This document shows, in pieces, positions 4,932 to 15,967 of a stretch of DNA of 36,833 nucleotides. The position numbers and the translations under genes were made by a program. The DNA lies in contig CALFUV010000029.1 of assembly GCA_937929825.1 (NCBI GenBank), positions 1-36,833 on the forward strand, read 5' to 3'. The first letter of the stretch is position 1. Each line of letters opens with the position of its first letter. The DNA is from an uncultured Patescibacteria group bacterium (lineage in GTDB: Bacteria; Patescibacteriota; Patescibacteriia; Veblenbacterales; UBA10138). The notes below the pieces were generated by a model, which saw nothing but the letters and a program-made list of their open reading frames with translations, did no database searches and was not told the DNA's origin.

Positions 4932-5463
4932 TTAAGTAAAATATTAAGTTAAACTTTATTTTATATTCAACGTATTCAATTCCAACTCTGGTTACCTGAT
5001 GCTTACCCAAACCTAAAATACCACTACCACCTTCTAAACAAAAACGAACTTCAAAATCAGTTGAAGATCGAGCTACCATAGTATAATCACATTCTGCTGT
5101 AGGACAGGTAAAAGACGTGTAAGGTGTGGCAAGAGAACAGGTGTTTGTAATACCTAATGGACCAACAAGTGTACTTGCGCCGGGTAAAAAAGCGGTTATA
5201 CCTCCGCTACTACAAGCTTGATTAAATCGACCGGGAACAGTCCCGCCGTAAGCGTTGTAGCTATTATTTTTAGTTGCATAAAGCTCAAAGGCCTTACTAA
5301 CAGCGCCCATATCATTAACACGTCGGGCGTCACGTGCTTTTTGTCTGGTGTTGCCCAAGACTCCCACCGCCAAGGTAGAAAGAAAACCGATAATTGAAAT
5401 AACAACCAAAAACTCAATTAAAGTAAACCCCTGCTTGTCTTTGATCTTTGATTTGGTAAACAT
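4924..5463 (-). CDS. Type IV pilin-like protein
   Basis: KQGFTLIEFLVVISIIGFLSTLAVGVLGNTRQKARDARRVNDMGAVSKAFELY; overlaps pilB by 8 nt. Confidence 0.92.
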   Translation of the reverse strand: MFTKSKIKDKQGFTLIEFLVVISIIGFLSTLAVGVLGNTRQKARDARRVNDMGAVSKAFELYATKNNSYNAYGGTVPGRFNQACSSGGITAFLPGASTLVGPLGITNTCSLATPYTSFTCPTAECDYTMVARSSTDFEVRFCLEGGSGILGLGKHQVTRVGIEYVEYKIKFNLIFYLNA

Positions 5464-5517
5464 AATTTGTTAAACATAATTTTATTTTAGATGTTACTTA
5501 TTAGTTCATAATTAAAT

Positions 5518-5826
5518 TTAAGGAGTAATTAGACCAAAAGGATCTTTATTGCCTAGAGCTTTTATTTCCAGCGGCACTTCGCCAAAACGCAGTAAATTGG
5601 TAAGTTCAGGTGCGCGTAAAAGGCTGAAATCTGCTGGCGGTTTGGTGCCGGCGGGTGCCTCAACATCACCTGCTACGCTCGTTGGAGTTAAAACTATCGG
5701 CTGGGACACTTTTTTAGAAGGTGCATAGTTACGGTATAACAGTATTCCTATTATACCCCAAACCACCACCATTGTGCCAGTGTATAGTATTATTTTTTTC
5801 TTACTTAAAGCTTTACGGGCTAACAT
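5518..5826 (-). CDS. Small membrane-anchored pilus assembly protein, possibly PilP-like
   Basis: Single TM and C-terminal KALGNKDPFGLI; lies between pilin and pilO. Confidence 0.55.
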   Translation of the reverse strand: MLARKALSKKKIILYTGTMVVVWGIIGILLYRNYAPSKKVSQPIVLTPTSVAGDVEAPAGTKPPADFSLLRAPELTNLLRFGEVPLEIKALGNKDPFGLITP

Positions 5827-8901: not shown

Positions 8902-11900
8902 TTAAGGTACTGGCGGCAAAGGAGTGCGGAATTGCCAACTAGGTAATGTACTCATAATATCTTTAAAGCCCGGCGGTGTATTAAGAGAAATACGGCCATC
9001 GGCAATTATCTTTTCTGATGGTTCACCGCCTGCTGATGCTGTTCGTTCCAATTTGAATTCTCGGGCAATAACAGCGCCATAAATCCTTAAACCAATATTA
9101 CCGCCGCCTGTCCTAAAAATACCACCGGCTAATCTAGGTGTTGGATACCCGCCGCCTGTATCTGCCATTGTTATTCCAGCCACAAAGAAAGAACCTACTA
9201 CTTGGCTTACACCGGGATCAATCTCCACATTACCCAACACTAACCAGCCTACTGAAGCCAGCTCGCGAGCATTAATTTTCGGCAAAGCTGGTTCGTAAGA
9301 TAAATTAGCCCTGATGTACAAATCACCATCTACAATAATCAAACCGGCTCCAGAATTTTCCCGTCCATTGGCAAACTCAACCGGTGATCTAATCACTAAA
9401 TCTCCCTTAATTCTTAAAACGCGTCCGCGTAAAGGATCACCTTCACGTACTATTTCATTAAAAGGAGTATTTTCAGACCAAACCCAAACTGGATTGCCGT
9501 AAATATTCGGCTTACCTTCGACTGCTTCTATACCAGCTAAATTATGAGTTAAACCATAATAATCAAAAGTGCTTTTTTGTGTACCGGGGGTAGCAGTGGT
9601 GCCGGGGTAAACTATTTGACCAAAACTTGGATCCACAAAAGAAAGTCCCGGCTTTGGCGGTGAGGCAGAAATAAAGTTCTCTATAACTCTGGTTTGTTGT
9701 TCCGTACCGCCTCCCAGCACAAAATAAGTAGCATTAAAACTACCCGGTGGTGGTGTATATTCAGCTCTGATATTGCCTTGTGAGTAAATACTGCCCTCTT
9801 CCACTGAAACATAAGGCTCATCACACAAAGAAGCTAATTTGTAACAAATGTTATAATCAACCTGATTGCAACTATTAACAGTAAATTTTATTCTGTTGGG
9901 CTGATTGTTATCAGCTATTAAATCAAGTAGAGTAATTGGCGGACTAACAGTGCTTTGATTCAAAGGTTGATTATAAACCGCCGCGTTGCCGATAGCATTA
10001 GCGTCAGCTGTATGGCTGGTACTGGGTTGTGCACAAACACCTTTGAACCTAATTTTTGGCGCCTGATTATCTGGCGTGTATATAAGGCTATATTGTTCAA
10101 TATTATTAACGGGATTTGTGGATTTTATTGTAAATTCATAAGTTTCACCATCATTAGCACGCAAAAATACATTGGGGTCATTTCCCGGCCCGGGATAACA
10201 GTAAGGCATAATATGATCTATGGTAAACTGATTGCTTAAAGCGGCGGTTTTTTCCACGCCATCATCCACCTCTACCTGAACGCGTTGATTAACTGCGGCC
10301 GGAGCACATAAAGAATTCCAAAGATAAGTGCATTTCCTAAAAGTAGTACTGCCGTTCCCGCCGCTACAGTTTAATTTAGGATCATTGCTTGGAATGCCCA
10401 AAACAATATTTTTACCAGCCCCCGCAGAACCGTAAGTAATATTAAATCTTATCAGCTGGGTATTTGGATTAGGATCGTTATCCGAATCCCTATATTCCCA
10501 AGTAATTATAGCTTGGCCGTTAACAACATCATCTCCACCATTACTAGGCCAACCAGGCGATCTGGTAATGATCACATTTTGAATCTGCGGGGGGGTATTT
10601 ATGGTAAAACGCCAGCCTGTAATTGGTTGGCTGTAAACCGTGTTAAAAGTATCTTTAGCACTCACACCCCAACGATATATTTGTTTAGGTGAAGGATTAA
10701 AACCTGTTAAGTTATAACCGGCCGAACAACCGTTAGTCGGCGGACCACATAAAGAATTGCAAGATTGTTGATTTATCAAAGAGCCGCGGCAATTAGGTGA
10801 GGCTGAACAAGGATCTGTCATATTTAGATCTCCATTAGGCTGAGAAAGAAAAACATTATAACTATAATAAGACGGATCTGAATCAGGATCACAACCAATC
10901 CACCTAAGCTGGCTGAGACTGGCGGGTACCACAGCTCCATCAGCCGGTGTGGGTGTATGGGGTGCTATAGGTTCCAAAGAAGACATATAATATATGCAAA
11001 CGTCTGCGTTGTTGGGATTAAAATAATATGGTGACAAATTTCCAGCCACATCGCGAGCCGCGGCCCGGAAACAATAAGTTTTTTTATGATGCAATTGGAT
11101 TCTTTGTGGTCCAGCGCCCTTACAATCTGTTGGAAAAGTGATAGTTGGTTGTAAATATGAAAAACCGCCCTGTGGTTCATATGGGTCCAAAGAACAATTT
11201 AACCAAGAGCCATTATCAATGCGGTATTGCAAAAACCAACGGCTGACACCGCTGTGAGCAATACCATTATCCAAACTAACTAAGGGGTAATCCTGCCAAA
11301 AAGTAGTTACGGGGAATTCCTTTACTGTAGAAATTATAGCTAAACCATCTTTATTATATATAAGGGGTGGAGTCACAATAGCATATGCTTCTATATAAGA
11401 ATTGTCTGTATCGATTTTTATAGCCACTTGTTCACTATTAAAAGGAATTACTGGTGGCGGTACAATAGCAGAATAAGCTGTTCTACCAGATGTATCCTGC
11501 ACTTCTACCCTATACTGATAAAATCTACCGCTTTGACCTTGTATAGTATCAGAATAAGAAAAATCAACCAGACCGTTATCAACTAACGGATTACTAATAG
11601 TAGTCCAATCAGACCAAACAGTTGGCACATAATCAGGAGGTGAAGACGTATAAGACGAGACCGATGTAGCCGTGCGTCTTTGTAAAGCACATTTGGTTAA
11701 ATAATAATCTTCTTCAGCAATGCAATTGACATTGTAATTAAAATACAAATTATTATACCAACCAGAGTTTTCCGGTTTGCTGATAAGTGTAGCAGATATG
11801 ACTGCTCTCTCTCTGGTTTTACAACTTATTTCGGCATAACTGATTGTTGCCTCATTATCATTATTACGGGCAATAATGCGTGTAGTATACTGGGTATCAG

Positions 11901-13793: not shown

Positions 13794-14028
13794 AAAAAAT
13801 CAAAAGCCCACCTTCAGGCTTGGTACGATTGGAGTTCCTAATAACTCCAAGGGGGCCGGTCATCAGTCAAATTGGTACCAGCAGGAAAACTCTTTCCCAA
13901 CCAAGCCAACTTAACTGTTCCTCATAGCCGCCGAGGATTAATATTTTTATACCCACGAGTATAAAAATTTCATCCTTTGCTGTACTGAGATTGTAGAGCT
14001 CAATACATACCAAGCCTTGCGATGAGCT
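13794..14028 (-). ncRNA. Candidate stand-alone structured ncRNA, family not assigned
   Basis: Promoter TTGACA-N17-TATTTT (14058-14063 / 14035-14040); 10-bp closing helix 13816-13825 with 14008-14017; several internal hairpins; 3' hairpin plus U-tract at 13794-13821. Confidence 0.72.
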
Positions 14029-14196: not shown

Positions 14197-14622
14197 TTAC
14201 TCCTCCATTATTAAATTGGCACGTTCACGAGCCGAGTGAATTGTCGCAATGAACTGAATTAAACCTTCTATTTTTTCCTTTTCAGAATATCTATAACGAC
14301 CGTTTAGACCAGCTAACGAATAAATCCTATCCGCTATTTCCTGAGTTGGCGGATGTGCGCCGGAACCTATTAACAACTGTGCCAAAAGTTTAGCATAATG
14401 CCGAGGAATGCAATCCGGACAAAAATTTTTTTCTGTACCATCTAAATCAACCATTTGGACGAGTAATATCTTATTATTACTCGCGCAAAGGCATTGTCCA
14501 AAGCGAGAAGTTGGGATTTCCATTTTTATCTTTTGGCCGCAAGTTATACAACTTGTGGCGTTAACCGAAACTAACATGTTACATTTTTGGCATCTTTTTG
14601 ATGCTCCGACATTTTTTATCAT
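14197..14622 (-). CDS. Zn-ribbon small protein, unknown function (paralog of next)
   Basis: CQKCNM...CITCGQK then CLC...FCPDCIPRHYAKLLAQLL; SD AGGAGGT. Confidence 0.75.
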   Translation of the reverse strand: MIKNVGASKRCQKCNMLVSVNATSCITCGQKIKMEIPTSRFGQCLCASNNKILLVQMVDLDGTEKNFCPDCIPRHYAKLLAQLLIGSGAHPPTQEIADRIYSLAGLNGRYRYSEKEKIEGLIQFIATIHSARERANLIMEE

Positions 14623-14632
14623 TTACTACCTC

Positions 14633-15022
14633 CTATACATATTGAATTTGATTTATTTGATTAAATTTATTTATAACTTTAACTAAAAGATTAATATTCT
14701 CTCTGGTGGGATAAGTTGAAAGTTTTTGAACATTAATAAATGTTTCAAAATTACCATAAACATTAGGGGCGTTCATAAAACCAAAACTATTAGTAAGCTG
14801 GGAGGCTAAGGTAGCTGCCACAGGTGTTGGTAAATGGTGTGGACAAAATGCTTTTTTGATTCCGTCGTATTTAATAACAACCAGATTTTTATGCTCACCG
14901 CAAGGGCAATTTTCGCTGTTAGATGGTCTTAAATCAAGCTTAACTTTTGTTAAGCAGTTTTGACAAACATTAGCAGTTGATTGAGTTTCACAACCGCAAA
15001 AACAACAAAGATTGTTATCCAT
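14633..15022 (-). CDS. Zn-ribbon small protein, unknown function (paralog of previous)
   Basis: CCFCGCE...CQNCLTK then CPCG...FCPHHLPTPVAATLASQLT; SD AAGGAGA. Confidence 0.75.
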   Translation of the reverse strand: MDNNLCCFCGCETQSTANVCQNCLTKVKLDLRPSNSENCPCGEHKNLVVIKYDGIKKAFCPHHLPTPVAATLASQLTNSFGFMNAPNVYGNFETFINVQKLSTYPTRENINLLVKVINKFNQINQIQYV

Positions 15023-15257
15023 GATTTTCTCCTTTTATTTATTTGTTAAGGTATAGTGTTAATTAGTTTTTTAATTTTGATTACAAATCAGCCGCTCTTT
15101 TTAGAAAGAGCGGCTGAGGTAATTTACAATTAAGTTCTTAACATTAGATTAACTTCAACTCGCTCTTTGGTGAAGAGATAATAATAAACAAACCAACAAT
15201 AATGTTGAGCGAGTTAGATATTTTTTTGTAAGACAAATTAAACATATTTATATCTTG
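15023..15257 (-). promoter_or_regulatory. Structured 5' leader of the Zn-ribbon gene pair
   Basis: Promoter TTGACA-N17-TAGTAT (15287-15292 / 15264-15269), AACTCGCTC...GAGCGAGTT helix, then 12-bp hairpin CAGCCGCTCTTT-CTAA-AAAGAGCGGCTG. Confidence 0.6.
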
Positions 15258-15309
15258 AAATAAATACTAGCACCCCTTTAAAATCCTGTCAAATTTCTAA
15301 TTTCCCCAT

Positions 15310-15336
15310 AAAAAAGCGGCTTTTAAGTAAGCCGCT
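15310..15336 (-). terminator. Rho-independent terminator of the T-box transcript
   Basis: AGCGGCTT-ACTTAA-AAGCCGCT then TTTTTATGGGG on minus strand. Confidence 0.85.
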
Positions 15337-15349
15337 ATGAAGGAATGGG

Positions 15350-15556
15350 TTAGCAGTAATGACTGCCGTCAGAAATTTTTTTTGTTTTTAGGTCTTCAGG
15401 TTTTAACACCTGAGATGTGTTGCTTTGAGGAACTTTTTCTTCAGAAGAATTATGTAATTCTGTATTCTGATTATTTTCCAGTTTTTTGGAAGATTCTTGG
15501 CTATTATCAGCCCCTTCAGGAATTATTTGTCCTACAAAATAACTTTTGTTTTTTAT
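15350..15556 (-). CDS. Small hydrophilic ORF with apparent ATA start, unknown function (68 aa)
   Basis: AAAAGGAGAAGATC-ATA; (M)KNKSYFVGQIIPEGADNSQESSKKLENNQNTELHNSSEEKVPQSNTSQVLKPEDLKTKKISDGSHYC*; between the T-box and a terminator. Confidence 0.5.
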   Translation of the reverse strand: MKNKSYFVGQIIPEGADNSQESSKKLENNQNTELHNSSEEKVPQSNTSQVLKPEDLKTKKISDGSHYC

Positions 15557-15595: not shown

Positions 15596-15932
15596 TAAAA
15601 AACTCCTCCTCCCCACTAGTTTCCCTAAAGAAACTAGTAAGGACGAAGAGTTTTACTTCTCCGCGGTACCACCTCACTTGTTCCGTACTATACGGAACCT
15701 GCTTTCACGCACGCTTTGAAAAAGAAATGCGTTAGTCCTGTTACGGGAACACCCGTTTCAGCTTACTAGCTAAATTTAAATAATAAAACTTGCATTCGGC
15801 TGAACGACTCCCGAGGGAACTTCCTTTACACTTGTTACAGATCTGCTTTCAGTCGCGGCAGATCCTCCCTTTTGAAACGGAGTATAAAGTACTTTCCTCG
15901 TTCACGGTCTTTACCACCTATTAAAGAACAAT
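15596..15932 (-). promoter_or_regulatory. T-box riboswitch (tRNA-sensing leader); specifier read as UUC/Phe
   Basis: T-box AGGTGGTACCGCGG; Stem I with AGTA and opposing GAA-G-TTC; stem III GTTCCGTA-TAG-TACGGAAC; terminator AACTCTTCGTCC...GGGAGGAGGAGTTTTTT. Confidence 0.9.
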
Positions 15933-15938
15933 AATTAC

Positions 15939-15967
15939 ACTTTAAACTATATAATTATAACTGTCAA
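15939..15967 (-). promoter_or_regulatory. Promoter for the T-box transcript
   Basis: TTGACA-N17-TAAAGT on minus strand, just after the glycosyltransferase stop. Confidence 0.6.

Follow-up and report, generated by a model that had tools for sequence, protein, structure and literature searches.

The window (the whole 36,833-nucleotide stretch analysed here, contig 29 of a 0.80 Mb Patescibacteria genome that is 98% complete) was confirmed to carry a T-box riboswitch with predicted tRNA binding and antitermination. Since this T-box module lay inside a locus where other amino-acid sensors drive small proteins, the unit most likely represents an amino-acid-starvation response output and not a Phe supply gene. 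The best explanation, which we consider probable, is a transcription-attenuating Phe T-box, likely a module from a pheST leader, whose output would be a starvation response via small proteins.

The leader gave a full-length match to the Rfam T-box covariance model RF00230 (15914–15636, minus strand, as are all window coordinates below; model positions 1–219; 107.6 bits, gathering cut-off 93; E = 4.8e-23), comprising Stems I, II and III and the antiterminator. It was preceded by a promoter (TTGACA-17-TAAAGT, 15939–15967). The Stem I specifier loop consisted of AAAGUA opposite GAAGUUC, and thus contained the AGUA/GAA arrangement of T-boxes and a triplet matching the host tRNA-Phe (GAA). The antiterminator (15636–15678) folded with a canonical 7-nt UGGUACC bulge, of which UGGU (15671–15668) would pair with the tRNA 3' end. 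It competed with a terminator (15599–15654), a 56-nt hairpin with a folding energy of −36.0 kcal/mol (z = −8.0). A further terminator closed the unit at 15315–15336. The Rfam match, the promoter and the folds bear out the first-pass annotation, which had described a T-box leader with its own promoter, Stem I, T-box and terminator.

Conservation was assessed in an alignment of four Patescibacteria and two Chloroflexi copies. Both sides changed in 27 of 52 pairs, and 85.3% of cells were paired compared with 37–44% when the partners were slid. In Stem II, changes occurred in all six pairs while pairing was kept in all six sequences. Since the stems covary across the six copies, the T-box structure is kept under selection. 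A TTGACA promoter preceded the T-box in every aligned copy, that is, in the window, in the related genomes G003, G006 and G038, and in the two Chloroflexi.

The specifier was located at 15817–15819 by the RF00230 alignment, where it read UUC (Phe) within GAA-G-UUC-C. Its register was in doubt because two codon spacings occur in other Patescibacteria T-boxes: the codon follows GAA directly (GAA-CGC before argG) or one base later (GAA-U-UAC before a tyrosyl-tRNA synthetase-like gene). The nucleotide following the specifier was C instead of the usual purine, and this C was shared by the pheS leaders of Chloroflexi, which have the same loop. A leader containing GAAGUUCCCUC was common to the window T-box and the pheS–pheT leaders of Anaerolineae. 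Scanning 85,462 genomes with a sequence pattern detected it in two Anaerolineae records, and a T-box search added one more copy, the third from Chloroflexi. In all three copies pheS was the next gene, followed by pheT where the record reached that far. A strict pattern applied to 200 Anaerolineae recovered the known copy alone, because its stem III part was too narrow. The elements shared with the Anaerolineae pheST T-box (RF00230) were the specifier loop GAAGUUCC, stem III CGGGNGUUCCCGU, the UGGUACC T-box and the TTGACA promoter.

A tRNA search covering approximately 96% of the host genome (769 kb) found one tRNA-Phe, with anticodon GAA and discriminator A73, which fits both UUC and UGGU. The identical leaders 5' of pheS–pheT in Chloroflexi, together with this tRNA, support Phe (UUC) as the predicted specifier, as had been proposed from the leader alone along with the fit of the TGGT bulge to discriminator A. 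A specifier one base earlier (GUU, Val) or later (UCC, Ser), with a ligand other than tRNA-Phe, would agree with the direct GAA-codon spacing seen before argG in other Patescibacteria T-boxes and, for Val, with the tRNA-Val(GAC) present in the host genome. Such a shift is disfavoured by the pheST homologues, in which the identical loop lies 5' of pheS–pheT in three Chloroflexi, and UUC is the +0 frame under the TBDB rule (PMC7778990); we consider it extremely improbable.

The window T-box does not precede pheS–pheT, as its Chloroflexi homologues do. The absence of a synthetase or transporter downstream, noted in the first-pass annotation, was upheld, and a small ORF was found in that place. 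The direct target was a 68-codon hydrophilic ORF (15350–15556) with one Cys and no family match. It had no ATG, GTG or TTG start; an ATA was well placed after AAGGAG, and because of this start the ORF is missing from a standard ORF list. The annotation had correctly placed a 68-aa hydrophilic ORF before the next terminator (15336–15315) while overlooking the ATA start. We infer translation from the AUA, although an ORF without a standard start codon may not be translated. The host pheS was intact elsewhere in the genome, where it began directly behind another gene and had no leader. Two weaker T-boxes were also present in the host genome, before valS (40 bits) and thrS (30 bits).

Among the T-boxes listed by Wels et al. 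2008, 92% precede synthetase, biosynthesis or transport genes and 8% precede unknown or unrelated genes (PMC2494555), and an orphan target by itself therefore has precedent. What is unusual here is that the same switch recurs in front of unrelated small ORFs and that several sensors are stacked at a single locus. No paper on T-boxes in Patescibacteria was found in the part of the open-access literature that was covered. Other Patescibacteria T-boxes (L010, L011, L046, L092, L097, L009) also stood before unusual genes, including a nucleoside phosphorylase (GAA-CAC, possibly His), a TrpD/thymidine-phosphorylase-like gene (UGG, possibly Trp), an AstE/AspA-like gene (UAC, possibly Tyr), an ATP sulfurylase and a PPDK-type ATP-grasp gene. 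Arg (CGC) T-boxes preceded argG in Patescibacteria L006, L013, L043 and L053, with a small helical ORF between T-box and argG in L006.

Three further Patescibacteria had the same T-box with small ORFs; it occupied the syntenic locus in two of them, G003 and G006, and another site in G038. The targets were a 53-aa basic ORF in G003, an 82-aa and a 39-aa ORF in G006 and a 58-aa ORF in G038. All had ATG or GTG starts and good ribosome sites directly downstream of the T-box, and each unit was closed by a terminator. No homology was detected when the ORFs downstream of the four T-boxes were compared. Searches with the small ORFs of the locus against Pfam, NCBIfam, PADLOC and PHROGs gave nothing above cut-off, with weak zinc-ribbon hits alone. 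Phe was strongly depleted in the T-box ORFs (1 in 300 residues versus 10.9 expected from window proteins); allowing for hydrophobic content lowered the expectation to 7.9 (P = 0.002), so that the depletion is partly explained by the hydrophilic nature of the peptides. In the attenuator-controlled ORFs of the locus (see below), Phe was near expectation (29 versus 32).

The ATA start of the window ORF, the lack of homology among the downstream ORFs and the patchy presence of the T-box (three of eight family genomes) are what one would expect of an orphan relic, a T-box that came with pheST or another gene since lost and is still transcribed but has no useful output, the ATA ORF being a decaying or chance frame. 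We consider this unlikely given that promoter, specifier, T-box, terminator and closing terminator were intact in four genomes, that the stems were kept by compensatory changes, and that the three relatives have ATG- or GTG-started ORFs with good ribosome sites directly downstream. Conservation of the leader but not of the ORFs, in a unit that stands alone between a promoter and a terminator of its own, could also mean that the functional product is the RNA. Either the terminated leader (approximately 320 nt) or the read-through transcript would then act in trans, e.g. by sequestering uncharged tRNA-Phe, with the ORF being incidental. The conserved antiterminator/terminator switch would be needless for such a sponge, and three relatives have good Shine-Dalgarno sites and starts, making this reading very unlikely.

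In contrast to the Anaerolineae leaders, the window type thus targets small ORFs, in Patescibacteria that have their own unleadered pheS. G001, a genome of the same genus, had no T-box unit, and its glycosyltransferase gene ran directly into the attenuator promoter, which indicates that the unit is gained and lost as a module. The unit was apparently acquired ready-made (promoter, leader, terminator), and the source was probably a Chloroflexi-type pheST leader, with the direction of transfer judged from similarity and not from a tree. No evidence for a mobile-element origin was found. A shared genome-specific sequence of the two promoters of the locus, hinting at duplication, was not supported. 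Contamination or misassembly was rejected because G003 is syntenic, with the glycosyltransferase gene upstream and the tRNA-Pro downstream in common. Separation from pheS/pheT by an assembly error, which the first-pass annotation had named as a possible objection, is contradicted by the intact pheS elsewhere without a T-box and by the recurrence of T-box and small ORFs, syntenically in G003 and G006 and at another site in G038.

The T-box unit was situated between the glycosyltransferase gene and a second amino-acid leader 300 bp downstream with its own promoter, which had been missed in the earlier description of the locus, correct as that was for the T-box unit. This attenuator (15292–15079) consisted of an extended −10 promoter (15264–15292), an Ile/Leu-rich leader peptide (MFNLSYKKISNSLNIIVGLFIIISSPKSELKLI, 15144–15245) with homologous leaders in G001, G003, G004 and G006, and hairpins 1:2, 2:3 and 3:4 (15079–15206). 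The leader peptides shared IIxGLxII. The hairpins folded either as 1:2 plus 3:4 (−39.8) or as 2:3 (−18.5), and compensatory changes were observed in both the 3:4 and the 2:3 helices. A model of the attenuator matched one copy each in six of the eight family genomes, with one weak match outside the family; an Rfam search gave no family match. With a codon-run peptide and conserved, mutually exclusive hairpins, although the U tract of the window copy is poor, the second unit reads as a textbook leader-peptide attenuator. It shares the amino-acid-rich leader peptide and the three hairpins with the enterobacterial ilv/leu/phe/trp attenuators, but lacks an Rfam match and controls zinc-ribbon and helical small ORFs, not biosynthesis. 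In this genus, the targets were two paralogous Cys-rich zinc-ribbon-like proteins of 129 aa (14633–15022) and 141 aa (14197–14622); elsewhere, they were other small ORFs, including helical ones. AlphaFold2 gave a poor model for the 141-aa protein (pLDDT 45).

The nearest functional precedent is found in B. subtilis, where the small zinc protein anti-TRAP is controlled by a Trp T-box and by tRNA-dependent stalling of ribosomes (PMC11255114). The rtpA/yczA operon resembles the locus in combining a T-box and a leader peptide with a small zinc protein that is a shortage effector and not a supply enzyme (PMC11255114, PMC2494555). It differs in its amino acid (Trp there, Phe or Ile/Leu here) and in having one transcript where the window has separate ones, and no sequence similarity is claimed. 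The T-box transcript of the window does not encode a zinc protein, as the zinc-ribbon genes lie past a terminator and a promoter. Read-through past the closing hairpin would bring them under the T-box and make the 129- and 141-aa proteins its real targets. The two units are on the same strand and 300 bp apart, and anti-TRAP is a precedent for a small Zn protein controlled jointly by a T-box and a leader peptide. Against read-through, the intervening terminator recurred at that place in G003 and G006, and G038 had a single small ORF and then a terminator. We therefore regard such read-through as quite unlikely.

Further amino-acid sensors were found at the syntenic locus in relatives. G006 encoded a Trp repressor (PF01371, E = 1.9e-18) with an operator-like GTACTAGTAC palindrome (L032, about 10165–10530). 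G007 had a WFWF leader peptide and attenuator hairpins (L156, reverse complement 5360–5545) before a 176-aa ORF, which was weakly related to a 108-aa ORF behind the TrpR gene in G006. From these arrangements, the locus reads as hypervariable, with several amino-acid sensors controlling small, fast-evolving proteins, and it gives the impression of an amino-acid-starvation island. Partial tRNA-Pro(GGG) copies surrounded the intact gene in G006 (L032), as in a recombination-prone site. A candidate structured RNA of approximately 235 nt (13795–14028) with its own promoter and terminator was conserved beside the same locus in G001, G003, G004, G006 and G007. Its predicted fold (−91 kcal/mol) combined a long closing stem with a hairpin UAUUGAG-CUCUACAAU-CUCAAUA, and it had no Rfam match. 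Elsewhere in the window, a cobalamin riboswitch (25263–25079; RF01482, 59.2 bits) preceded a 578-aa ORF.

In the mechanism we propose for the Phe T-box, charged tRNA would let the strong terminator form when Phe is plentiful. When Phe is short, uncharged tRNA-Phe(GAA) would make two contacts, pairing its anticodon with the UUC of Stem I and its 3' ACCA with UGGU. The antiterminator would then form, and RNA polymerase would continue into the short unit, which comprises the ORF for a small hydrophilic protein and a closing terminator. We infer that this switching occurs in vivo. The module would have been placed into a locus already under the control of other sensors, namely the Ile/Leu attenuator and, in relatives, a TrpR-like repressor and a Trp/Phe leader peptide.

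The Phe T-box thus retained its sensor while its output changed, and its neighbours at this locus are further amino-acid sensors. This provides a sequence-based handle on how auxotrophic, host-attached bacteria respond to amino-acid depletion, and marks the small uncharacterised proteins at the locus as putatively starvation-induced. More tentatively, and with somewhat less than even confidence, we hypothesize that the locus is a dedicated amino-acid-starvation island of host-dependent Patescibacteria. In different species, the Phe T-box, the Ile/Leu attenuator, the Trp/Phe attenuator and the TrpR-type repressor would drive fast-evolving, non-supply small proteins as starvation effectors, those of the T-box units being nearly Phe-free. 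If this is true, these effectors might act on, e.g., the ribosome or the host cell.
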